Positions 19,378 to 51,811 of a stretch of DNA of 57,818 bases are shown piece by piece. The position numbers and the translations under genes are program-made. Source of the stretch: a virus; IMG/VR virus record IMGVR_UViG_3300032893_000051, positions 1-57,818 of that record, one strand, 5' to 3'. The notes below the pieces were generated by a model. That model was not told the DNA's origin. It did no database searches and saw nothing but the letters and a program-made list of their open reading frames with translations. Positions within the stretch are counted from its first letter, which is position 1; every line of letters starts with the position of its first letter.

Positions 19378-22188
19378 TTACGACCTGACACCAAGTCCCC
19401 CCACCGACACGCCCTGGTACTCCCCGTCCAACACTTTTCGCCACTCTTTCGGGTCCAGGATCTTGATCGCTATGACCCAGGAACCTTGCTTCACGGTTTG
19501 GGGTCCGTAGGGCCCCTCGTTCCACTCCAGGTCCTGCGGCACTATGTAGGATTCGACGGGCACCGCCTCTATTTCTTCCTCGTGGTTTTTCCCAACCATT
19601 CGGGAGCTTATCAGGTAGTTGTGCGCCGCTTCCTCGATATCCTCGGGGGTCATCCAATCGTCCTGTTCGTCGAGCTCCTCGGGGGCTAACACTACGCAGT
19701 AAATGATCTGCTTTTTTATGTCGGCCTTCTTGATCGGACAGATCTTCCGCACCCACTTCGTCAGCTCTGGGTATCGGTTGTAGATCGCGTTCTTTACGAT
19801 CTCCTCGTCGGTGGTTCCGGAGGATTGCCGAAGCGACTCCATGGCTTTTTCGAGGGTCTCCATCGGATAGGCCATTCGATCCGGCACAGCGTAGTTCTCG
19901 TTGCCGATGAGTTCAGCGGGTTTCGCATCCAGCATAGGCTGGGACTCCTGCGCTTCCTCTGAGAGAAACCGGTGGAAATCCCCCTGGAACTTCTCAAAGT
20001 CCGGCACCAGCTCCTCGGTCGACGGGTGCACGCCCTCGCCCTGTTCCTCGAGCAGAAATCGGATGAAGTTTTCTCCAAAGTTCGACAGCGCCTGGTCTAG
20101 ATCTCCGATCTCGTGCTTTTCTATTTCGCTGCCGGCCCCGGGCTGCTGTCCGGCGACTATCACTTTGTCATCGGAGTGCTCCTGCTGCCGAGAGACTAAA
20201 GAGCCCTGGCTCGGGTATCCGTGAACGCGATTACCCCGTCCGGAGCTCGTGGCGTCGCTCCAGGTGTAGCCGAGAGCGTCCATCGCCAGTAGTGCGTCTG
20301 CAGGGAGCATGTCATATTGGGCAATCCCGATTCTCGGCTCCGAATCGTTCGACGTGGAAGCATCGGGGACCGCCACTCCAGTGAACCGCTGGCGAAAGCT
20401 CGGCTGCCCCTCTATCTTCTGGACATCCTCGTTTGTTTCATGACCGGTGAGGACGAGCCGTGGGAACTCCTTCGTCCAGTCGGGGTAGTTGTAGATGTCG
20501 TTCGGGCCCTCATAGGTGAATTGCCCTCCTGGCATGAGCACGCGCTGAATCTCCGACAGTAGAGCCTTCTGGTCCTGTTTTTCCAGATCCTGTAGCCCAT
20601 CGCGGAGTCGCACATTTCGGACGCTCCTGTCTGGTAAAGGAATTCCGGTTGTAAGATCGTGAACCACGGTGCCGTAGTCGTAGGGGTAGACGTCAAATCC
20701 CACGTAGCCGGGCATCCGCGCCTGCCCGCTCATCAAATCTATATTCAGCCCCACCGGCCAGTTGGATGTGGATTCTTCTTCGTTTTCGAGAGTGTCCTTG
20801 TTAATTTCCGGGTTATGCTCGATCGCCAACGCATCGCTGGTGTCTACTGTTTCGATTCGCTTTTTCCGATAGTAGTCTGGGTCGTCCTCGAGGTGACTTA
20901 TGGCAAGCTCCTTCGCCTCCTCGCCAACGCTCGTCGTGTGCTCCATTTCCCAGTCGATTCCTGAGACGATTTGCTCCATGCCGTACAAATCCGACGCATC
21001 CTGGTTGTCGCCGGCCACGTAGTTCTTCAGACACTCGCCGTACTTTTCCGCCACGGAAAAAAGCCCCAGTCCCCCAAATTCCTTCAGCACTTCAGCTTCC
21101 AGATTGTTCACGCTCGGGGGCTCTACCTGAGAACTACGGCTCCGGTCAGTCGAGGTAGGCGGAGTCCCCTGCGGCTCGACCTTTCGCTGAAACGGCTGCT
21201 TTTTCTCGTCCTGTGGAGGGGAGGGAACGTGGACGTCCGAGCCCCCTGGCTGAGCTTTGGAGATCTCTGGAAAGTTCCTTCTGAGATGGTCCTTTAGGCC
21301 CGGGTGCGTTTCCATTATCGACATCGTCTCCTCCGGAGTAAAAACTCTCGCCGGCAGCTGCTTTTTCCCAGTCTTTATGGCTTTGTGCATGCGGTGGTGC
21401 CCGTCAATCAGTAGGTATCGAATCCCCTCCTGCGTGGGAATCGAGGCAATGAAAACGGGGTTTTTGGACTTCGATCCCATCGCCGCCTGCTCGTCGACGT
21501 GTATCTTGTCACTCCACGCGGGATCCACGGGGACCTTGGCGTTGTGCTTTTTGCCGGCAAGGTCTCGCGCCTTGTCGATGTCGAAAATCATCGACCCTAT
21601 GACGAACTTCTCCGCGTCCGAGCCGTCACGGACAGTCCCACCGAGGACGTCGGGCAGCGAGCGGTAGATGTTCTCTGGGGTGACGTCCGGGGCAACGCCC
21701 TCGACTGGCTCCGGATCGGATTTTCCGACTTCTCCTGTGGCTTCACCCGTATTCCTACCGACACGCACCGCACGGTCATCCCATAGCTCCTTCATGTGGT
21801 GATCCTTGACGTTGGTGACTTCCAGCCTGGGAAGCCCCTGCGCCTCGAGCCAGTCCTGGATTTTCTTTACGTTGCCTTTTTTCCCAGCGCGCGCGGTGAA
21901 AACCTTTACGTTCTCGCCCTTCGACAGCCAGTCCTTCACCCGGTTGACCATGGGTCCAACGGCTTGGCCGATGTGGTCGTCGCCTTTGTACCCATCGTAA
22001 TGGGCTAGCGTTCCGTCCAGATCGACTCCGATCCAGGAGTCCATTTTCTTCTTCTTGGTTTCTACCTTCTCTGGAAGGTCCATCCCGCGGCTCGCGCGGT
22101 CGTATTCCCGAACGGTCTTTTTGGGGATATCCCCGCGGGCCTCGGCTGCGTGAAAGAATCGACGCTGTGCTTCCGAAACGTACGGCAT
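19378..22188 (-). CDS. 936-residue multidomain head protein: HAD, ParB-like, DUF5661, methyltransferase-like, XkdF
   Basis: I chose the ATG at 22188 (MPYVSEAQRRFFHAAEARGD, a widespread phage N-terminal motif) because it has a GGAGG site and forms TAATG with the upstream stop. Domains by residue: HAD-like phosphatase at about 49-145 (VDLDGTL, FTARAG, ELWDDRAV); ParB/sulfiredoxin-like at about 190-295 (LLIDGHHRMHKA); DUF5661-like at about 365-445 (ELAISHLEDDPDYY); SAM-methyltransferase-like at about 475-600 (LNIDLMSG, GFDVYPY, EIQRVLMPGGQF); XkdF-type prohead-protease domain at about 810-936 (PEELDEQDDWMTPEDIEEAA). The C-terminal domain fits the position before the scaffold gene; the joined enzyme domains are most unusual and may be carried into the capsid or released by processing. 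Confidence 0.75.
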   Translation of the reverse strand: MPYVSEAQRRFFHAAEARGDIPKKTVREYDRASRGMDLPEKVETKKKKMDSWIGVDLDGTLAHYDGYKGDDHIGQAVGPMVNRVKDWLSKGENVKVFTARAGKKGNVKKIQDWLEAQGLPRLEVTNVKDHHMKELWDDRAVRVGRNTGEATGEVGKSDPEPVEGVAPDVTPENIYRSLPDVLGGTVRDGSDAEKFVIGSMIFDIDKARDLAGKKHNAKVPVDPAWSDKIHVDEQAAMGSKSKNPVFIASIPTQEGIRYLLIDGHHRMHKAIKTGKKQLPARVFTPEETMSIMETHPGLKDHLRRNFPEISKAQPGGSDVHVPSPPQDEKKQPFQRKVEPQGTPPTSTDRSRSSQVEPPSVNNLEAEVLKEFGGLGLFSVAEKYGECLKNYVAGDNQDASDLYGMEQIVSGIDWEMEHTTSVGEEAKELAISHLEDDPDYYRKKRIETVDTSDALAIEHNPEINKDTLENEEESTSNWPVGLNIDLMSGQARMPGYVGFDVYPYDYGTVVHDLTTGIPLPDRSVRNVRLRDGLQDLEKQDQKALLSEIQRVLMPGGQFTYEGPNDIYNYPDWTKEFPRLVLTGHETNEDVQKIEGQPSFRQRFTGVAVPDASTSNDSEPRIGIAQYDMLPADALLAMDALGYTWSDATSSGRGNRVHGYPSQGSLVSRQQEHSDDKVIVAGQQPGAGSEIEKHEIGDLDQALSNFGENFIRFLLEEQGEGVHPSTEELVPDFEKFQGDFHRFLSEEAQESQPMLDAKPAELIGNENYAVPDRMAYPMETLEKAMESLRQSSGTTDEEIVKNAIYNRYPELTKWVRKICPIKKADIKKQIIYCVVLAPEELDEQDDWMTPEDIEEAAHNYLISSRMVGKNHEEEIEAVPVESYIVPQDLEWNEGPYGPQTVKQGSWVIAIKILDPKEWRKVLDGEYQGVSVGGLGVRS

Positions 22189-23066
22189 TAAGCCTCCGAA
22201 ATCTCGATGGTCAGTATGCACTCGCAGTTAGGGTGAAGCGGAGGGCCATCCACTCCGGCCGAGAACTGGTCGTGCAGTCCGACGGATTCACCATCAAGCT
22301 CCGTGCACTCTGGGCACGGGTTGCCGTCCACCTGCCAGACCTTCTGAGAGCCTTGCCCAATCAGCCCCTCGGCTGCGGCAGCCTGCCAAACTAATTGCTG
22401 CCCCTGATTCTGAACGGCCTGCGTCTCGGTCTTCGCTATCATCTTAGCACGGTAGTCGAGCAGCCTGTCATGGTACTGGTCCACAAGCTTATCTATCCTA
22501 GTTCTGGGCAGCCCCTGCGACTCTAGGGTCGATTGGTAGTTGATCAGCGCTGTGGCCTGCTGTGGGTAGAGTCCGATCATGGGCTTGATCAGCCGAGCCA
22601 TCGTGGGCACTGGAATCGACTCACGGAGCTGTTTCTCCACAGCCTGCTGGATGACTTTCCGGGCATCGGTGCTGATGTCGGTGACGAGCCTTCCCGTTCT
22701 GCGGTCAACGTAGTCCTGTATTCTCCGGTTCTTTAGGTCAAATCTCAAATTCTTATCTGCCTGTGCCGGCAGCGGGGCTAGATCGGAAAACTCTCCCATG
22801 GACCTAGCCATATGCGCGCGGTATTGGTCCAACTCGTCGGGCAGCTCGCTCCAGGGAACGAGTGAGTAAATTGAGTTGTAGTTTCCCGACAACCACGCGT
22901 CCGACAAAGTTTTCTCGCTGATCTTTTTCTTGAAGGACTTTATCCCAGACAAAAAGTCCACGCGCGCGGCCTGGGACATCGTATTCGTCAGCGCCCGCAC
23001 CCGAGCGGTAGTCCTACGGTACGTTTTTCTGGGAGCCGCCTTCTGAACTGTGGAGAAGATGATCAC
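22188..23066 (-). CDS. Phage head morphogenesis protein (Mu gpF-like)
   Basis: A 292-residue protein whose C-terminus has the family signature: MIAKTETQAVQNQGQQLVWQ, then CPECTELDGE and LHPNCECILTIEI, the paired cysteines of the Mu F-like minor head domain. The N-terminal part is helical. It follows the portal and Cys-rich genes and is expected to be a minor head protein next to the portal. Coupled upstream by ATGA. Confidence 0.85.
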   Translation of the reverse strand: MIIFSTVQKAAPRKTYRRTTARVRALTNTMSQAARVDFLSGIKSFKKKISEKTLSDAWLSGNYNSIYSLVPWSELPDELDQYRAHMARSMGEFSDLAPLPAQADKNLRFDLKNRRIQDYVDRRTGRLVTDISTDARKVIQQAVEKQLRESIPVPTMARLIKPMIGLYPQQATALINYQSTLESQGLPRTRIDKLVDQYHDRLLDYRAKMIAKTETQAVQNQGQQLVWQAAAAEGLIGQGSQKVWQVDGNPCPECTELDGESVGLHDQFSAGVDGPPLHPNCECILTIEISEA

Positions 23067-31231: not shown

Positions 31232-32158
31232 TCAGTCAACCATGAGTCCGAAGAATTCGAGGATTACAAATCCCGCGACTAGGCAGACCATCACTAGGAA
31301 GATGTAGAACGGCCAACTGTGGTCATCTCCGGTTGCGGAGATTTCTTCCTTGTCCACGTTGAAAATCAAAGCATCCGACGCAACACTGTTGCATTTCACA
31401 CCATTTTTGTCGGTGGCCTTGGTCCAGATGTAGCCTTTTTCTCCCCACTCCGTGCCCCAGGAGTTTTTCACGTGGAACAATCCCACGCCGTTCGGCAGGT
31501 TGCCCTCTGCGTTAAACTTGCATTGTCCCTCACAATCATATCCGGTCAGTAAAACCATGTGGTTCACCTGACCTGGAGTGCAGGCCTTGTACACTCCGCC
31601 CTGATACAGCTCCCAGTGCATGTCCGCATAAACGTCGACAGACACGGGGTGGTGCAGCACGCCGACGGAGTAGGCGATATCGCGGAAGCTGGGGCCGTTC
31701 ATTTCTCCCAGCATCGAATAACTCTCTGCGGAGGCGACGGGTTTGAGATGCCGGCAGGTCGAGGTCTGTCCAGTGTACGGCCACTGATTGTACGTCGGAG
31801 GTCCTTTCGGATTTATGAACCACTCCGCCGCGTCGAAATCCCCTCCACTGCATCCGTCCGCAGTTTCGTAGTCGCAGTCGATCAGATAGTTGAACGACAG
31901 CCGCCCCGGATCCCGTCCGGAGTTTAACAGCGTGTCTCGGAGGTTTCCGGTTAGTGAGAAGTCGTAGCAGTCCCCGCATTCCCCCTGGTTCTCCACGGGC
32001 GAGGCTTTCAGGTCGTACTTATTCGGGATGACGGAGGTTTCCGCGAGAAACGAAATGTGCGGCATCGCCTCGAGCATCTTGTGGGTTTTTCGCTTCAGGC
32101 CTTTGGGATGCAGCGCATAGGCGTTCGTCGCAATCAGAAGGATGAGAATCAGTCGCAT
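31232..32158 (-). CDS. Membrane-anchored papain-like cysteine protease (C1A)
   Basis: A 308-residue protein with a signal peptide (MRLILILLIATNAYA), almost no propeptide, and all C1A landmarks: Gln58 in NQGECGDCYDFS, catalytic Cys64, GCSGGDFDAAEWF, His200 in VNHMVLLTGYD and Asn232 in KNSWGTEWGEKGY. Residues 282-305 form a C-terminal membrane segment (FYIFLVMVCLVAGFVILEFF), so the enzyme would sit on the periplasmic side of the inner membrane. It forms a two-gene unit with a 47-residue protein and has its own terminator. Papain-like enzymes are rare in phages; the target could be host envelope proteins, competing phage, or the phage's own secreted fibres. Confidence 0.85.
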   Translation of the reverse strand: MRLILILLIATNAYALHPKGLKRKTHKMLEAMPHISFLAETSVIPNKYDLKASPVENQGECGDCYDFSLTGNLRDTLLNSGRDPGRLSFNYLIDCDYETADGCSGGDFDAAEWFINPKGPPTYNQWPYTGQTSTCRHLKPVASAESYSMLGEMNGPSFRDIAYSVGVLHHPVSVDVYADMHWELYQGGVYKACTPGQVNHMVLLTGYDCEGQCKFNAEGNLPNGVGLFHVKNSWGTEWGEKGYIWTKATDKNGVKCNSVASDALIFNVDKEEISATGDDHSWPFYIFLVMVCLVAGFVILEFFGLMVD

Positions 32159-38430: not shown

Positions 38431-38597
38431 ACGAATCCGGCCAAGAACAAAGTGAAGGGCAGCCTCACGGTGACCGCGTGGACCACGGAGCTAATCGTAG
38501 AATTAGCGCCCCACAATCCAATTGCCACAGCATCGTAGATGATCAGTCCGACTAGGCAGGCCGCTAAAATGAGTCCGGTTAGAAGCTGCTTGTTCAT
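38391..38597 (-). CDS. Small membrane protein
   Basis: A 68-residue protein with two hydrophobic segments (LLTGLILAACLVGLIIYDAV, then LPFTLFLAGFVCGHLFW). The ATG overlaps the stop of the upstream metallo-hydrolase gene as ATGA. No family is recognised. Confidence 0.6.
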   Translation of the reverse strand: MNKQLLTGLILAACLVGLIIYDAVAIGLWGANSTISSVVHAVTVRLPFTLFLAGFVCGHLFWNLAEDD

Positions 38598-39796
38598 AAA
38601 TACTTGGAGTAAAACTCTATCGACGATAGATCATACCGGTTAGGCTCCCTCCAGTAGCGAAAACGCCTGGTACCAAGAGCCTGCTCGAAAGTGATCTCTC
38701 CCTTGTACCACTGCAGAAATACAGACTTATCAAATAAGAACTTCGTATATGGTTTCTTCGGCGGCCCATGGAGCGATATTGTATGCGTCTCTCCGTCTAT
38801 TATTATCCCGTTCACTACAAAGCGGTGATTCACACTGTGAGCTATTTTCTCTATCCTAGACTCGAGTCTGCTGATTGGAAGGCTTCTCGGTTCGTATTCT
38901 TCAAAGGGCATAGGTTTCACCCCAGCAAATGAATCCTTGACGATCTTTAGGTATTGCGACTCGAGGGTGACTTCCTGACCTCTGGAGTTCACCGTGCGCC
39001 GGATGGATCCGTCCTTCAGGTAGTATCCACCGGTGATGAGCCGAATCGCTCCCGACAGGTTCCAGGGCGTAGCGAGGCTCTTGTTCAGACGAGATGCCAT
39101 GCCGTCGACGTGGTAAATGTTTCCGCCGATCGGAATCGCCACGGTCGGGCGCATGATCTCCATGAACTCGCAGCTCTGCTTCAGAGTCTGGTGAGTCAAT
39201 CGGAGAGTCTCCTCATTTTTTTCCTTGTCCGTCAGAGAGTCCAAAAGGTGCGGGTAGTAGTGGACGAAGGCGTAGCCTAAGAGCGCAACGTCCACCCTAC
39301 CCACTTTCTCTTTAAGGGGTGCCAGTTGATCCTTATCGAGAAAACAATCATTTCCGAAATAAACCGTGAAATCCTTTCCCTTTATGAAGCACGCAGAGTC
39401 CACCGAGTTAAACGGATGCTTCACGAACAGAATCCGAAGTCCACTCGGCAGCCGCCTCCACTCCCCGGGCGCCATTTCCGTAAGCCCCTTGTACCGGGAA
39501 ATCCTCGACGACAGATCCGGGCGACCGGACATCACCGTCACCGAGCAGGGAACGCGTCTCAGGATTTGATCGCAGCAGTGGTCAGCATGCCAGTGTGAAA
39601 CGATACACTCCCGCACGCTCGGAAGGCACGGCTCCCCGTCCACCTGTGGGGGTATCACTTTCCACCAGGGAGCATAAGGCTCCACTCCCCACATTGGATC
39701 GAGAAGCACGTGCACTCCGTCCACTCGCGCGAGAACGGAAGAGTGTCCGAGGAGGAACACGCCGTCCTGTTTCTCGCGGAGAAAGTCAGTGAGCAT
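38594..39796 (-). CDS. Metallo-beta-lactamase-fold hydrolase
   Basis: A 400-residue protein with the HxHxDH signature SHWHADHCCDQIL, an N-terminal GHSSVLARVDGVHVLLDPMW as in the UlaG/NAPE-PLD-like branch, and a later YFGNDC region that could provide the metal aspartate. The C-terminal 150 residues are an extra domain (RFVVNGIIIDGETHTISLHG). The gene overlaps an LpxA-like acyltransferase gene by 11 bases and belongs to a glycan gene set. The substrate, perhaps a glycan- or lipid-linked ester or amide, is not known. Confidence 0.75.
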   Translation of the reverse strand: MLTDFLREKQDGVFLLGHSSVLARVDGVHVLLDPMWGVEPYAPWWKVIPPQVDGEPCLPSVRECIVSHWHADHCCDQILRRVPCSVTVMSGRPDLSSRISRYKGLTEMAPGEWRRLPSGLRILFVKHPFNSVDSACFIKGKDFTVYFGNDCFLDKDQLAPLKEKVGRVDVALLGYAFVHYYPHLLDSLTDKEKNEETLRLTHQTLKQSCEFMEIMRPTVAIPIGGNIYHVDGMASRLNKSLATPWNLSGAIRLITGGYYLKDGSIRRTVNSRGQEVTLESQYLKIVKDSFAGVKPMPFEEYEPRSLPISRLESRIEKIAHSVNHRFVVNGIIIDGETHTISLHGPPKKPYTKFLFDKSVFLQWYKGEITFEQALGTRRFRYWREPNRYDLSSIEFYSKYL

Positions 39797-40430
39797 CGCA
39801 GACCTCGTGCAGCTTGCTCTCCCATCGCTCCATCTCCACTTCGAAATGTTTCTGGGTGACGTTCGCCCTTTGCAGCCCGATAGTGTTCTCCTTCACGTAC
39901 CTGGCCGGGTTCCCGTACCACATTTGCCCGGGCTTGACCTGGGCGGTTTTTGTGATAACCGCTCCCATTCCGACCATCGCGTAGGATCCGATCAGACTTC
40001 TCTGGTGCAGCACGCAGCCCAATCCGAGGTTCGCCCCTTTCATGATGAAGCTCTCTCCGCCGATGAGGCAGTTGCAGGAGACATTGCAACAGTCCTCAAG
40101 GACGGAGTCGTGCGAGAGGTGTGATCCCCTCAGCATTACGCAGTGGTCGCCCATGCGGGTGATGCCCTTGGTGCCACTCTGTATCGTCGTAAACTCTCTG
40201 ATTACGTTGTCGCTGCCGATCTGTACTCCGTGCATGGAATGGAAGAATCCATACTTCTCCCCCGGAAGTCCGATGCAGGAGTGCGCCTCGATTCTGTTTC
40301 TACTGCCTATAGTCACGTTCGCGCCGATGACTACGTTTGGCCCGATATAGTTGTCTGTTCCGATGTAGACGCTGTCTCTGTCGAGAAAAACTACTGAGTG
40401 GTGAATGTGGTTCACGTTACGTGCCTCCAA
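39786..40430 (-). CDS. LpxA-like hexapeptide acyltransferase
   Basis: A 214-residue left-handed beta-helix protein: repeated hexapeptides (YIGTDNYIGPNVVIGANVTI), then VQIGSDNVIREFTTIQSGTK, which resembles the LpxA active-site region with its REF/YxTI motif, and SYAMVGMGAVITKTAQVKPG. It probably transfers an acyl group to a sugar nucleotide, or a sugar, and could modify lipid A or O-antigen precursors. It lacks the C-terminal helical domain length of true LpxA (about 260 residues). Confidence 0.75.
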   Translation of the reverse strand: MEARNVNHIHHSVVFLDRDSVYIGTDNYIGPNVVIGANVTIGSRNRIEAHSCIGLPGEKYGFFHSMHGVQIGSDNVIREFTTIQSGTKGITRMGDHCVMLRGSHLSHDSVLEDCCNVSCNCLIGGESFIMKGANLGLGCVLHQRSLIGSYAMVGMGAVITKTAQVKPGQMWYGNPARYVKENTIGLQRANVTQKHFEVEMERWESKLHEVCDAH

Positions 40431-40699
40431 ACTCTTTTTTTCAAATCTCTATCGTCGGCATTGGTCTTTGCCGTTCCGCAGAATAAGTGAGCTGGATTAA
40501 TACAGGGCGGATTATCGCCCTTATGCAGGACCCACTGCCCCTTGGGTATTTCTCCGAAAAAAAGCTCGTAGCTAAATCGGTGCGCACGACGCAATTTACC
40601 GCTGATATTAATAAGTCCGTAATCATCGCGGTCTCGATACGGAATCCATTCCCAACAACCAGACTTAGTGATTTCTATAGAGAGCACGTTCTTCCTCAT
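40412..40699 (-). CDS. HNH_3-type homing endonuclease
   Basis: A 95-residue protein with GCWEWIPYRDRDDYGLINIS, RAHRFSYELFFGEIPKG and NPPCINPAHLFCGTAKTNAD, the classic HNH_3 pattern (H, N, H). It is wedged between glycosyltransferase and LpxA-like genes, overlapping both, and carries AT-rich DNA, so it looks like an inserted selfish gene. Confidence 0.85.
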   Translation of the reverse strand: MRKNVLSIEITKSGCWEWIPYRDRDDYGLINISGKLRRAHRFSYELFFGEIPKGQWVLHKGDNPPCINPAHLFCGTAKTNADDRDLKKRVWRHVT

Positions 40700-41418
40700 A
40701 TTGGATCCCGAGCAGGCGGTAGATCTGGCTTTGGAAATCCAGCTGCGGCATCTTGACCAAATACTTTGGCATTAAATTCCAATGCTTGATCCTTCATTTT
40801 TCGATATTCTTTATCTTCAGCATCGTGCCCGATGTGCTCTGACCTCACTCCCGGAATGTAGAAAGAATTGAAACCGGCGCGATTGACCCTCTCGTTTAGC
40901 GAGGAATCCTCTAGCCCATAAACTCCATAGTTCTCATTAAAGAAACCGACCACGTCTATTACCTTTCGTGGTAACAAAGTTACGCCGAATATTCTGTTCA
41001 GAGTTTCGTTCAGCCAGTGCGCCTTCAGTCCGAATCTCACCGTGATCGGTGGCGTGCCCGAGTGCCCCCAGTCGAATCCCGCCAGCCCGCAGTTCGGCAC
41101 TATTTTCATTAGCGCCAGCGCGTGCCCGAGCCAGCCTTCAGGTAGCAGGATGTCGTTCGGGAAAAGGCAGATCACCTCGCCAGTGCACCTAAGGTAGAGT
41201 TGGTTAAAGCTATGCCCAACCCCCTCGTTTCTGGAATTCAGTCGGTGGTAGAGAGGTTTGATCTTCGCGATGAAGTTCACTATCCGCTTGTCCTTCGATC
41301 CCTGATCTGCCACGAGTAGCTCCCAGTCGTCGTGGCCCGGATTTCTCAGGTTGTGCGCGACGGTCTTCGAGGTGATTTCGTAGCGGTTCATTGTGAGTAG
41401 TAAAAGGGAGACTTTCAT
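40696..41418 (-). CDS. Family 2 glycosyltransferase
   Basis: A 240-residue GT-A protein: VSLLLLTMNRYEITSKTV and WELLVADQGSKDKRIV for nucleotide binding, ICLFPNDILLPEGWLGHALA around the metal site, and GLEDSSLNERVNRAGFNSFY for the acceptor/catalytic base region (ED motif). Coupled to the GT-B gene by ATGA. It probably builds a glycan together with its neighbours. Confidence 0.85.
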   Translation of the reverse strand: MKVSLLLLTMNRYEITSKTVAHNLRNPGHDDWELLVADQGSKDKRIVNFIAKIKPLYHRLNSRNEGVGHSFNQLYLRCTGEVICLFPNDILLPEGWLGHALALMKIVPNCGLAGFDWGHSGTPPITVRFGLKAHWLNETLNRIFGVTLLPRKVIDVVGFFNENYGVYGLEDSSLNERVNRAGFNSFYIPGVRSEHIGHDAEDKEYRKMKDQALEFNAKVFGQDAAAGFPKPDLPPARDPI

Positions 41419-42425
41419 CCGAGCATCTCCTGAATCAGACTAAATCTCTTTCCATTTACGTATCGGACGTCGTTCTTGGAGAACTCTTCCCACGCCGTCA
41501 TGGCGGCATGTTCTGCGGCTTTTGGATTCGACATAAAGAAGGACATCGTCTCCTGAAAGGAGCAGTTACTTGACGGATCGTAGTTATTATGTCCGATGTT
41601 TAGCCACTCCTCCCAGTTTGGACATACGCAGGGGGCTCCAGCGTAGGCGGCCTCGATCTGGGCGATGTTTGACTTCGAACGGTTGAAATCCGTGTCGGCG
41701 AGCGGAGTTACTACCACCTGTGGCTTCAGCGTAGCCAAAGCTACAAAGTACGCAATCGGATCACACGATGGCGCCTTGATTGCCCGGTCGCCGAGTTTGT
41801 CGGAGAGCTGCCAGGCACATGGATCCGCGCCCATGAACACCCACCTAAATTCCGGATATTTTTCTGCCAAGGACAGAATGTCCGGAACCACCGTCGATAC
41901 GTCCCGGTTGTGGGTGGCAGTGCCTCTCCATAGAACGAAACGATTTCGCGGGCCGTTCTGTCGTCTTTTGTTTAGCAGAGGGTCGTAGGCATTTCGCACG
42001 ACCTCCACTCTGCCTTTGGAAAGTTTCCGCAGCTCTTCGCCCAGGCGATTCGTAGAGGCCCACACCATGTCCGCCCTCTGGATCATGGACGTGAGGTTCT
42101 TTACCACTTGTGGATTTCGGTAGAAGTCATAGTTCGGATTATCGGAGGTAATGTTTAGAACGTCGTCGTCCCAGTCTATGATTGTCGGAATGCCGAGTGC
42201 CTTCGCCCAGGTCAGGGCTTGGTCCATTTGCCCGGTGACGGGACGAAGCATGTAGACGACGTCCGCGCAGGCGACGTTCTGCCAGGTGGGCTGATTTGGG
42301 TGAATGACGTACTTCACTTCCACGTCGGCGTCGCGCTCCAGCCAGCGGAACGGACCGATACTTCGATACCAGCTCACTCCGTCGTTAGAATTCGTCGAGA
42401 TAGAAAGTATCTTTATTTTTTTCAT
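41415..42425 (-). CDS. GT-B-type glycosyltransferase (GT4-like)
   Basis: A 336-residue protein with an N-terminal acceptor domain (SISTNSNDGVSWYRSIGPFR, PTIIDWDDDVLNI) and a C-terminal nucleotide-sugar domain (RFVLWRGTATHNRDVSTVVP, FNRSKSNIAQIEAAYAGAPC) as in glycosyltransferases of phage and cell-surface glycan loci. It is coupled by ATGA to the zinc-ribbon gene upstream and by overlap to the GT2 gene. Confidence 0.8.
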   Translation of the reverse strand: MKKIKILSISTNSNDGVSWYRSIGPFRWLERDADVEVKYVIHPNQPTWQNVACADVVYMLRPVTGQMDQALTWAKALGIPTIIDWDDDVLNITSDNPNYDFYRNPQVVKNLTSMIQRADMVWASTNRLGEELRKLSKGRVEVVRNAYDPLLNKRRQNGPRNRFVLWRGTATHNRDVSTVVPDILSLAEKYPEFRWVFMGADPCAWQLSDKLGDRAIKAPSCDPIAYFVALATLKPQVVVTPLADTDFNRSKSNIAQIEAAYAGAPCVCPNWEEWLNIGHNNYDPSSNCSFQETMSFFMSNPKAAEHAAMTAWEEFSKNDVRYVNGKRFSLIQEMLG

Positions 42426-48944: not shown

Positions 48945-49679
48945 ATGAACATTTTGACTGGCAGTCGACAGCGTCTTTCTCTTCCTTTACTTCGATGGTG
49001 TCCGAGCCCGATCGTTTTCGTCGAGCCGCAGGAGATCAAATACTACCTTGAGGCACATCCCGGTATTTTTTTTCACGAGCTTTCAAAAAACGACGGTGGG
49101 TTCAGTTACCTAATGAATCAGATGATTAACTACACGCTTGACCGAGGAGAAAGATATTTTCTCTTTACCGACGATGACGTGACCGATCTGCGAATTCGAA
49201 AAGGACTTACCGAAAAATTCTCCCGCGTGCCGGATAGTCTCTGGACCGATCGGTTGAAAGACTTTGCCGAAGCCAATGACCTCGCGCAGCTCGCCGTGAG
49301 TTTCGCTGGTCAGAGCTGGGCAGCGAAGAAGGAAATTCAGTACGGAGTCGGGGCCTGGGGAGTGCACCTGACCGACGCCAAGGCAGTGCGAGCCGTCGGA
49401 GGATACGACGAGTCCCTACCTTGTTTCGGGGACTGGGATATTTCCGCGAGACTGCTCCAGGCCGGCTACCTAACAGCCAGGACCAATCTGGTGACCTTCG
49501 TGCATAAAATGAAAAGCCACGAGGGAGGCGCCTGCGACGTGTACAAAAAAAAGCGTCTCGTCGAGGAGGCAGCCCACCGGGTGGCCGCGAAGTTCCCCGG
49601 CTGCGCCACCGTGAAGTGGGTGGAGTCCCACGGCCTGCACGAGGTGCGTTTTAACTGGAAAAAGCTCTCTTCTAAGTAA
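48945..49679 (+). CDS. DDD glycosyltransferase, TET/JBP-associated (TAGT)-like
   Basis: A 244-residue GT-A protein beginning MNILTGSRQRLSLPLL, with VFVEPQEIKYYLEAHPG, NDGGFSYLMNQMINY, the metal motif LFTDDDV (Asp76-78), and a conserved GGYDESLPCFGDWDISARLL (152-171). The pattern V-E-P-x-E-x-x-Y, G-x-x-x-x-x-N and DDD resembles glycosyltransferases found beside phage TET/JBP dioxygenases. It may sugar-modify an oxidised base. I chose the ATG at 48945 (GAGG upstream); a TTG 24 bases earlier is possible. Alternative: a glycan-building enzyme. Confidence 0.65.
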   Translation: MNILTGSRQRLSLPLLRWCPSPIVFVEPQEIKYYLEAHPGIFFHELSKNDGGFSYLMNQMINYTLDRGERYFLFTDDDVTDLRIRKGLTEKFSRVPDSLWTDRLKDFAEANDLAQLAVSFAGQSWAAKKEIQYGVGAWGVHLTDAKAVRAVGGYDESLPCFGDWDISARLLQAGYLTARTNLVTFVHKMKSHEGGACDVYKKKRLVEEAAHRVAAKFPGCATVKWVESHGLHEVRFNWKKLSSK

Positions 49680-49702
49680 GCGAATCCCCTAATCTCATTC
49701 AG

Positions 49703-49745
49703 CTAGATTATTGTCCGACAATGTCCTACAATATAGTCAGATGGA
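49703..49745 (+). promoter_or_regulatory. Promoter/operator candidate of the small plus-strand operon
   Basis: CTAGATTATTGTCCGACAAT contains the inverted repeat ATTGTC-C-GACAAT (49710-49722). TACAATATAGT follows (49727-49737) and could hold the -10. The site lies 20-40 bases before the ATG at 49754, next to an AGGT/GGAGG site. A repressor binding here would block early expression. Confidence 0.45.
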
Positions 49746-49753
49746 GGTTAGCT

Positions 49754-49909
49754 ATGACTCAGGAAGAAAAGGTCCAGAAACTGATTCACCTTACGAAGAA
49801 ACTGATCCTGGCCCTGGACGAGATGAAGCTCTACATCCGCAAGCCCGGCGCTCTGATTATCGACGCAATAGAGGAGGCCAAGCATCTTCAGAAGGAGCTG
49901 GAAAAATGA
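49754..49909 (+). CDS. 51-residue helical protein
   Basis: ATG at 49754 with a GGAGG site; the product is a charged helix pair (EEKVQKLIHLTKKLILALDE, then IIDAIEEAKHLQKELEK). Its stop overlaps the next ATG as ATGA. Function unknown. Confidence 0.55.
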   Translation: MTQEEKVQKLIHLTKKLILALDEMKLYIRKPGALIIDAIEEAKHLQKELEK

Positions 49910-50163
49910 CTAGGCTGGAGGCTTTTCAGTCCCTCTTCGATCACCCTATGTACCGGAATAAGTGCAAGCAGCTCTCGGAACTGGACCTGCAGTTCTGCCG
50001 GGACTATTTGAACCACCGAAAGGAAATGAACGTGGATCTGTTTGCTTTCGAAGTAAATCGGATGTGCCTAGACACAGATAAGTCTAAGAATCATTTTCTG
50101 ATTTGGGAGCTGCTGTCGTCGGCAAATTCTATTATTGTGATGAAAGAAAGAGGTAAGAGATGA
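49906..50163 (+). CDS. 85-residue helical protein
   Basis: ATG at 49906 is coupled to the upstream stop as ATGA. The product (LFDHPMYRNKCKQLSELDLQ, NRMCLDTDKSKNHFLIW) is helical and charged, with no recognised family. Its stop overlaps the next start as ATGA. Confidence 0.55.
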   Translation: MTRLEAFQSLFDHPMYRNKCKQLSELDLQFCRDYLNHRKEMNVDLFAFEVNRMCLDTDKSKNHFLIWELLSSANSIIVMKERGKR

Positions 50164-50369
50164 AAAGAGGACGCCCAATAACCGGCTGTGCGCGCGTGAG
50201 ACTAGATGTACGTGTGGACTCCGATATCCGAGAAAAAATTGCCGGCCTCGCCGCGAGTCTGGGATTGGACGTATCGAACTGCGTGCGAATGCTCCTGGCC
50301 ACCCACCCTACACTCTCCGGCGCTCCCGCTCCATCTTCTCCTTCCGGCAGCGAGCGAGCTCCTCGGTAG
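50160..50369 (+). CDS. Ribbon-helix-helix-like regulator
   Basis: A 69-residue protein: ARVRLDVRVDSDIREKIAGL, then LDVSNCVRMLLA, a strand-helix-helix like Arc/CopG. The last 20 residues overlap the convergent dioxygenase gene and are low complexity. It may repress early promoters such as the one upstream of this operon. Confidence 0.55.
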   Translation: MKRGRPITGCARVRLDVRVDSDIREKIAGLAASLGLDVSNCVRMLLATHPTLSGAPAPSSPSGSERAPR

Positions 50370-51159
50370 GCGAGCCGCACTTTTGCATCGCACGCAGAGC
50401 GTAGTAGACGATCGAGTATCGGTATCCGTTCTTATTCATAGGCTTCACCGGAGTTACTCCGTGGATGAAGCTTTGTCCGTCGAATAAAAAGTACGTGTGA
50501 TCGTCCAGGAGCCACTTGGCGTTGAACTCCGGAATGCTGAGATTTCCACCCTCAACCAGGTTCTTAAAAACAGCCATGCAACTCATCACTCCGTGCAGGT
50601 TTCCACGATCGAGGTGATATTTCAGGGGATTGTTTTTATTGACGATACCTGAGGTAAATCTGGTGCCGGGAATGATCCATTCAGACCGAACTTTTCGAAG
50701 CGCCGCCCAGTGCGCTGCGGCTGTTTCAGGAGCCCACTTTTCGTAGTAGTGATCTAGCACCTGCCCGAACGCACAAATTTCTTCGTGCACTGCCGGCTGC
50801 TCCTCACAGCAGCTAGAAACTCCGCAGAAGTTCGCCGAGGGATTATACGGAACGCGCGGACGAAATCCAAAGGTCCTGCTTTCTCCTAGCTGCCTGGCTC
50901 GCGCTGCCTGACTCATTTTTCGATCACCTACGCGATCCATATCCGAACTGCGAACCTCCTGGTTGTAGTTGAGGTTTTGAACTGCGCGCAGAACTGAATA
51001 GAAATATGAAAGGAACCGTCCGTAGATGATCACCGGCTTTCCGTCGAGGCAATACACTCCCGGTTCCGAGTAAACTATTTCTGTATCTGACTCAGCTGGA
51101 GACTTCTTAAGCCACTCCTTGGGAGTTATTTCTCGTCGGACTAGATCAATTCTTTGCAT
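50308..51159 (-). CDS. TET/JBP-like 2-oxoglutarate/Fe(II) dioxygenase
   Basis: A 283-residue protein with the double-stranded beta-helix iron motifs: His182 and Asp184 in YHLDRGN, GGNLSIPEFNAKWLL, FDGQSFIHGVTPV with His233, and Arg247 in GYRYSIVYYALR for 2-oxoglutarate. The set HxD, E/G-G-x-L-x-x-P-E, HGVTP and R-Y-S is typical of TET/JBP enzymes that hydroxylate 5-methylcytosine or thymine in DNA. It overlaps the ParB-like gene by 14 bases, so they are translated together. The substrate base is not determined by sequence. Confidence 0.75.
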   Translation of the reverse strand: MQRIDLVRREITPKEWLKKSPAESDTEIVYSEPGVYCLDGKPVIIYGRFLSYFYSVLRAVQNLNYNQEVRSSDMDRVGDRKMSQAARARQLGESRTFGFRPRVPYNPSANFCGVSSCCEEQPAVHEEICAFGQVLDHYYEKWAPETAAAHWAALRKVRSEWIIPGTRFTSGIVNKNNPLKYHLDRGNLHGVMSCMAVFKNLVEGGNLSIPEFNAKWLLDDHTYFLFDGQSFIHGVTPVKPMNKNGYRYSIVYYALRAMQKCGSPTEELARCRKEKMERERRRV

Positions 51160-51811
51160 TCAGCTTTTTCCAAATCGCCTGGGAGTAATCCTCTACCTCG
51201 TATTTCTTCAGCAGCTCGTCGAGGATGGCTATTACCTTTTCGTACTGTTCCTTGGGATAATAGAGGACAATCTGCTTCACGGCGGCGTTCTTGTATGCCT
51301 CGAAGGAAACATTTTCCTTGGCTTCCCCGTCCTTCTTTTCTGGCTCGGGCGGCAGAAGAGCTAGCCTAATTTCGGGCATGTTGATCTCCGGAAAGTTGAA
51401 ACGATCCAGAGCATCCACTTTTAGTTTCGCTCGTTTCATAAAATCCAGGAGTCCGTCGTTGGTCATCGTCCCGTACTGGGAGGTCCCCTGGGCAACGCGC
51501 TCCAGAGCTTCCTCTTCATTTGCAGCTTCCACTGGTGTGCAGAGAAGTTTCGGGATGCCGATTCCTTCCTCCCGAAGTCGCTTCAGCATTTTCCCCCGCT
51601 GATGTCCGTCGCAGAAATACCACTTCTTGGACTTTGGGTGCTGCCAAACATGCGGGCTGAAGGCGAAGCCGGTCTCCATCACCTCTTTTTTCATTCTCTG
51701 GTAGTTTTCTTCGGTGAGTATTTTTAGCTTTCCCTGGAGATCACTAATCTCATCGACATCGAGAAGGACTTGTTTTCCATAGGCCAATCGGACTTCGGTT
51801 TGCTTTTTCAT
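51146..51811 (-). CDS. ParB/sulfiredoxin-like domain protein
   Basis: A 221-residue protein with LQGKLKILTEENYQRMKKEV, VWQHPKSKKWYFCDGHQRGK (DGHQR, 68-72) and TSQYGTMTNDGLLDFMKRA, the pattern of phage ParB-like proteins that lie beside DNA-modifying enzymes. The C-terminal helix may bind its partner. It forms an operon with the dioxygenase and could guide it to DNA or act as an NTP-dependent clamp or nuclease. Confidence 0.75.
   Translation of the reverse strand: MKKQTEVRLAYGKQVLLDVDEISDLQGKLKILTEENYQRMKKEVMETGFAFSPHVWQHPKSKKWYFCDGHQRGKMLKRLREEGIGIPKLLCTPVEAANEEEALERVAQGTSQYGTMTNDGLLDFMKRAKLKVDALDRFNFPEINMPEIRLALLPPEPEKKDGEAKENVSFEAYKNAAVKQIVLYYPKEQYEKVIAILDELLKKYEVEDYSQAIWKKLNAKN

Follow-up and report, generated by a model that had tools for sequence, protein, structure and literature searches.

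A divergent ParB, TET/JBP oxygenase and glycosyltransferase gene set with an inverted glycosyltransferase segment: a candidate DNA hypermodification module in a bacterial virus

Introduction

Base J has been described in kinetoplastids and their relatives. For phages, Iyer and colleagues are said to have predicted in 2013 modules of ParB and TET with a glycosyltransferase (GT) or an amino acid:DNA transferase (ADDT), and a cytosine hypermodification system built from a C5-methyltransferase, TET and TAGT was reportedly described in phages by Burke 2021. The experimentally characterised phage TETs act on 5-methylcytosine (5mC) (Burke 2021, as cited in PMC12730594). Known ADDT-type pathways begin with 5hmdU, to which a 5hmdU DNA kinase adds a phosphate (PMC6449724). 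The authors who studied the ParB-TET-ADDT-kinase genes of actinophages call them a thymidine hypermodification system (PMC11955845), and a similar gene list is given for phage CaiB (PMC9302106). Modules of the ParB-TET-GT/ADDT kind are already annotated in phage isolates, actinophages included. A 2019 paper states that glycosylated 5-hydroxymethyluracil (5hmU) had yet to be described from a phage (PMC6449724), and a literature search confined largely to openly available papers found no later report.

Here we analyse a 57.8-kb sequence of a bacterial virus (IMG/VR record IMGVR_UViG_3300032893_000051, positions 1 to 57,818), which we call the window. An earlier note on this sequence had proposed that three of its genes serve to oxidise a DNA base and then glycosylate it, an idea upheld by family profiles, AlphaFold and Foldseek analysis and comparative gene neighbourhoods. 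The three genes are a genuine, distant and rearranged member of the known module kind.

Results

Layout of the locus

The ParB, TET and GT reading frames are all present at the positions given in the earlier note (Table 1). The end of the ParB frame and the beginning of the TET frame share 14 bp (51146-51159), and the two genes are therefore coupled, as had been proposed. The GT, described as lying about 600 bases beyond the 3' end of TET, is separated from it by 628 bases (50308 vs 49679). It is opposite in orientation to TET, the three genes do not form one operon, and no sigma-70-like promoter was found upstream of the GT.

Table 1. Features of the candidate modification locus in the window
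Feature	Coordinates	Strand	Remarks
ParB/Spo0J-type protein, 221 aa	51146..51811	-	Precedes TET in the gene pair
TET/JBP-superfamily Fe(II)/2-oxoglutarate dioxygenase, 283 aa	50308..51159	-	PF12851, conserved residues, predicted fold
TAGT-like GT-A glycosyltransferase (GT), 244 aa	48945..49679	+	phrog_842; DDD 76-78, conserved D163, G194-G195
Small ORF behind GT, 85 aa	49906..50163	+	Homologous to L061:2161-2568, 42% identity (tblastn)
Small ORF, 69 aa, antisense overlap with the TET 3' end	50160..50369	+	tblastn match to L061

Neither of the two small ORFs has a Pfam match. The 69-aa ORF matches, by tblastn, the C-terminal part of the same frame of the nearest relative, L061 (IMG/VR contig IMGVR_UViG_3300042090_001969), that is also the counterpart of the 85-aa ORF. 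A frame at 49711-50163 was rejected as a mis-started version of the latter, since comparison with L061 places the conserved start at 49906. No nucleotide similarity of the window virus to catalogued phages was found.

Several other genes of the window deserve mention. A run of four genes on the minus strand (38594-42425) encodes a phrog_7162 glycosyltransferase, a GT2 glycosyltransferase, a hexapeptide acyltransferase and a metallo-beta-lactamase-fold protein; the run could decorate the DNA sugar or the virion, and neither of its glycosyltransferases has a homologue in the initial set of TET loci. At 31232-32158 (minus strand) this phage encodes a papain-family (C1) cysteine protease (PF00112, E=1.7e-35), a homologue of which is encoded by L061:6822-7643. 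A 947-aa protein (19378-22221, minus strand) carries a C-terminal XkdF-type prohead protease (PF14550) and is similar in its N-terminal part to phosphatase or polynucleotide-kinase PHROGs.

The oxygenase belongs to the TET/JBP superfamily

The putative oxygenase matches Pfam Tet_JBP (E=2.3e-9, 37.2 bits, passing the gathering cut-off of 34.9), and the Pfam search matched no other domain in the protein, a J-binding domain included. The HxD motif (H182, D184), distal H233 and 2-oxoglutarate R247 singled out earlier were borne out, being invariant across 44 aligned sequences (the window and 43 IMG/VR relatives, 29-44% identical). The AlphaFold2 model has a mean pLDDT of 91.9. Foldseek searches of the PDB with this model returned TET-family structures (CcTET, NgTET1, TET2, CMD1) at all of ranks 1-26, with E values of 1e-11 to 2e-8, followed by FTO and AlkB-type demethylases. 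HrmJ, a small-molecule-type 2OG enzyme, appeared at rank 34 among the 50 matches listed. Placement with prolyl hydroxylases or peptide oxygenases, which the earlier note had named as evidence against its proposal, was found in none of these 50 matches, and so the TET assignment withstood the fold search. A profile search of PDB sequences with the TET family gave TET-family chains only, as weak matches, and single-sequence PDB searches, which gave only noise (GABA receptor, lipase chaperone), were set aside. Together the profile match, the conserved residues and the model place the protein in the TET/JBP oxygenase superfamily, with a predicted enzymatic activity.

ParB is an integral partner of TET

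The ParB protein has an N-terminal ParB domain with a DGHQR motif. Alone it scores weakly (phrog_1033, E=0.0018), and as a single sequence it has no ParB match in Pfam. With the profile of its family, Spo0J/ParB/Noc structures are retrieved (best E=6.6e-10), along with one marginal match outside them (0.063), and the protein is homologous to the ParBs of its relatives (best E 2.7e-20). A search for further relatives with ParB alone gained one, L071, the closest ParB relative outside TET operons, in which the same N-terminal domain (38% identity to the window ParB) is joined in one protein with an N6/N4 DNA methyltransferase. L055/L056 encode an apparent fusion of a ParB-like domain to a shortened TET (L055:9698-10441) that is missing its N-terminus. 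Because the domain is found in the ParB-TET pair, in the L071 fusion and in the L055/L056 fusion, it appears to be an accessory of DNA-modifying enzymes in three arrangements. The earlier note is thereby refined: ParB is an integral partner in the ParB-TET family.

The glycosyltransferase is TAGT-like

The GT matches phrog_842 (beta-glucosyl-HMC-alpha-glucosyltransferase) with E=3.5e-8. Against PF20691 (TAGT) it scores 20.8 bits (E=4e-4) and does not reach the gathering cut-off of 27.5, and because of this score we label it TAGT-like only; its homologues in L055 (34.5 bits) and L067 (76.3) pass. The DDD motif, D163 and G194-G195 are invariant alignment columns. The model (pLDDT 79.4) has a GT-A fold, and its Foldseek matches in the PDB are GT-A enzymes (chondroitin polymerase, WrtF, SpsA). 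Thus, of the earlier description of a DDD glycosyltransferase resembling the family beside phage TET/JBP genes, the motif and the GT-A fold stood firm, whereas the likeness to TAGT proved distant and below the cut-off.

An inverted GT segment

In L061 the ParB C-terminus, TET, GT and the following ORF are arranged in that order on one strand, and TET and GT overlap by 4 bp. Identity to the window is 47% for TET and 69% for GT, and the two loci are sisters on the TET tree (support 100/100) on a long branch. The ORF behind the L061 GT has a homologue behind the window GT, where it is split (tblastn). The window layout can be derived from that of L061 by one inversion of the segment carrying GT and ORF. 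Phase-variable inversion was considered and rejected: no convincing inverted repeats were found at the segment edges, and a one-time inversion is therefore assumed.

Having left the TET operon, the window GT might now serve another acceptor (a virion protein, a cell-surface glycan or a second sugar) while TET still modifies DNA. Its opposite orientation and distance from TET, its sub-threshold TAGT similarity and the two additional glycosyltransferases at 40696-42425 would suit such a change of role. We nevertheless consider it improbable, since the L061 homologue lies directly after TET with overlapping frames, phrog_842 is a DNA-glucosyltransferase family, and between window and L061 the GT is better conserved than TET itself. 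Decay or inactivity of the module following the rearrangement would agree with the split ORF and with the failure to find a promoter before the GT; however, the three main frames are intact and the catalytic residues are kept, and we give decay very little credence.

ParB-TET is joined to exchangeable finishing enzymes

The neighbourhood census covered about 70 loci (57 from IMG/VR, L061, three from bacterial genome collections, and isolates). ParB and/or GT-type genes adjoin TET homologues in nearly all of the 57 IMG/VR relatives, and the association therefore goes beyond chance. ParB stands beside TET almost always, often in two copies, and its position upstream of TET in the window is the same as in the relatives; many loci lie directly before terminase. 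Partner labels among 69 loci, counted on records that are mostly fragments and with near-copies of one phage counted separately, were GT-A (39), FkbM-type methyltransferase (7), ADDT (6), P-loop kinase (5), a cluster without Pfam match (5), C5-methyltransferase (2) and other (1), with none seen in 4. On a maximum-likelihood TET tree these labels need 22 changes, and the ADDT loci L011 and L013 sit among GT and other loci; deep placements are uncertain because of the long branches. The pattern suggests that ParB-TET usually travels with one finishing enzyme, which has been exchanged repeatedly between lineages.

FkbM-type methyltransferases lie beside ParB-TET in L027, L008, L024, L044, L050 and L066, where the hydroxymethyl base may end up as a methyl ether. 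In L014 (1475-2368), L019 and L022 the finishing gene encodes about 300 aa, and the L014 member has no Pfam or PHROG match.

ADDT is the Pfam amino acid:DNA transferase (PF18724); for one member there is a further match, to aGPT-Pplase3, 'alpha-glutamyl/putrescinyl thymine pyrophosphorylase'. An additional search that started from the L011 ADDT gave 80 loci, with TET in 74, ParB in 65 and a kinase in 55. Where the flanks were long, TET and ParB were both present (26/26), as a rule together with a P-loop kinase. Most TETs linked to ADDT are more remote, scoring about 1e-31 against the TET profile. The window has no PF18724 match, while six positive controls matched in the same search. As to existing annotations, TET/JBP genes of phrog_6059 and of mycobacteriophage NC_ records are widely, and apparently wrongly, called queuine tRNA-ribosyltransferase, and the ADDT of phage Prince is annotated as a DNA glycosylase.

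These linkages also bear on whether the oxygenase might act on RNA or protein instead of DNA, as the presence of the RNA-acting FTO among the related folds could suggest. The constant linkage to ParB, including the apparent fusion in L055/L056, and the linkage to amino acid:DNA transferases make this the least credible of the explanations weighed here.

Thymine is favoured as the substrate

The earlier note had seen no functional cytosine-C5 methyltransferase in the window. This was confirmed: PF00145 was not found in the 57.8-kb record, while control genomes matched. Of 67 viral or phage records, just two have PF00145 (L041 and L042, one near-identical module), none of the larger ones among them, and no C5-methyltransferase of the L041 type was found in the 80 ADDT loci. 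A search of the window and of 49 records found no thymidylate-synthase homologue; 5hmU would therefore have to arise on DNA, and a pre-replicative route through such an enzyme was rejected.

The earlier note had left thymine and host-made 5mC side by side as substrates. Comparative evidence leans to thymine, because C5-methyltransferases are rare and because ADDT, with its known 5hmU chemistry, adjoins TET and ParB. For the window the argument runs through relatedness, since its own finishing gene is a GT and not an ADDT. The same module could instead oxidise 5mC, the substrate of the characterised phage TETs, provided by a C5-methyltransferase of the host or of an unsampled phage and yield glycosylated 5hmC; a host enzyme could supply 5mC to the window virus. 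Phages that combine C5-methyltransferase, TET and glycosyltransferases to make glycosylated cytosine are documented (PMC12730594), the T-even members of phrog_842/TAGT act on glucosylated 5hmC (PMC13216743), and the L041/L042 lineage carries a C5-methyltransferase between ParB and ParB-TET. Against this stand the scarcity of the methyltransferase, the patchiness expected of a host-dependent substrate and the pairing of close TET relatives with ADDT. We regard 5mC as the less likely substrate, though an appreciable alternative.

The ParB-C5MT-ParB-TET operon of L041 (1158-4253) and L042, the only C5-methyltransferase of the set, offers a natural setting in which to examine a version directed at 5mC. 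At the conserved positions of the alignment the L041 TET shows no residue of its own, and the sequence therefore does not separate thymine from 5mC substrates.

Discussion

Protein families, folds, conserved catalytic residues and conserved gene linkage support a module that, on balance, probably hypermodifies the phage's own DNA after replication through ParB, thymine oxidation by TET and capping by the GT. The ParB-type protein would bind DNA, possibly acting as a CTP-dependent clamp, and deliver or target the oxygenase. The TET/JBP enzyme would hydroxylate the 5-methyl group of a pyrimidine in DNA, most likely converting thymine to 5hmU. The TAGT-like GT would add a sugar to the 5hmU hydroxyl, giving glycosylated 5hmU, a phage analogue of base J, which may shield the phage DNA from host nucleases.

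More tentatively, at slightly less than an even chance, we propose that ParB-TET-GT phages including the window virus make glycosylated 5hmU from thymine in replicated DNA, as a phage base J whose partner has been exchanged (sugar, amino acid, phosphate, methyl). If true, bacterial viruses, some of them cultivable, hold a counterpart of the thymine branch of TET/JBP enzymes, and the new point would be proof of glycosylated 5hmU in a phage. The comparison also suggests a ParB-TET platform of general use, with a constant oxygenase and an interchangeable decorating enzyme, which could help to predict novel DNA base modifications and which restriction systems these evade.

Within the known module kind, the window represents a divergent member whose GT segment is inverted. 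L061 shares ParB, TET and GT with it but is colinear. The actinophage ParB-TET/JBP-ADDT-kinase operons (Tonitrus, CaiB, LilMcDreamy, Prince), annotated as thymidine hypermodification, follow the same order of ParB, TET and finishing enzyme and lack a C5-methyltransferase in those tested. They finish with ADDT and kinase, whereas the window finishes with a glycosyltransferase; the window TET is 31% identical to the Tonitrus and LilMcDreamy TETs. Arthrobacter phage Lilmac1015 (genes 65-69) likewise clusters ParB, TET and GT without a C5-methyltransferase, but is colinear, has an extra glucosaminyl deacetylase, and its TET is about 23% identical to that of the window. The system reportedly described by Burke 2021 resembles the window in TET-family oxidation followed by a TAGT-like GT, and differs in having a C5-methyltransferase, for which the window has no PF00145 match. 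With the kinetoplastid base J pathway (JBP1/2, JGT) the window would share its chemistry, from thymine through 5hmU to glycosylated 5hmU, the oxidation here falling to a TET of 283 aa that matched the oxygenase domain alone.
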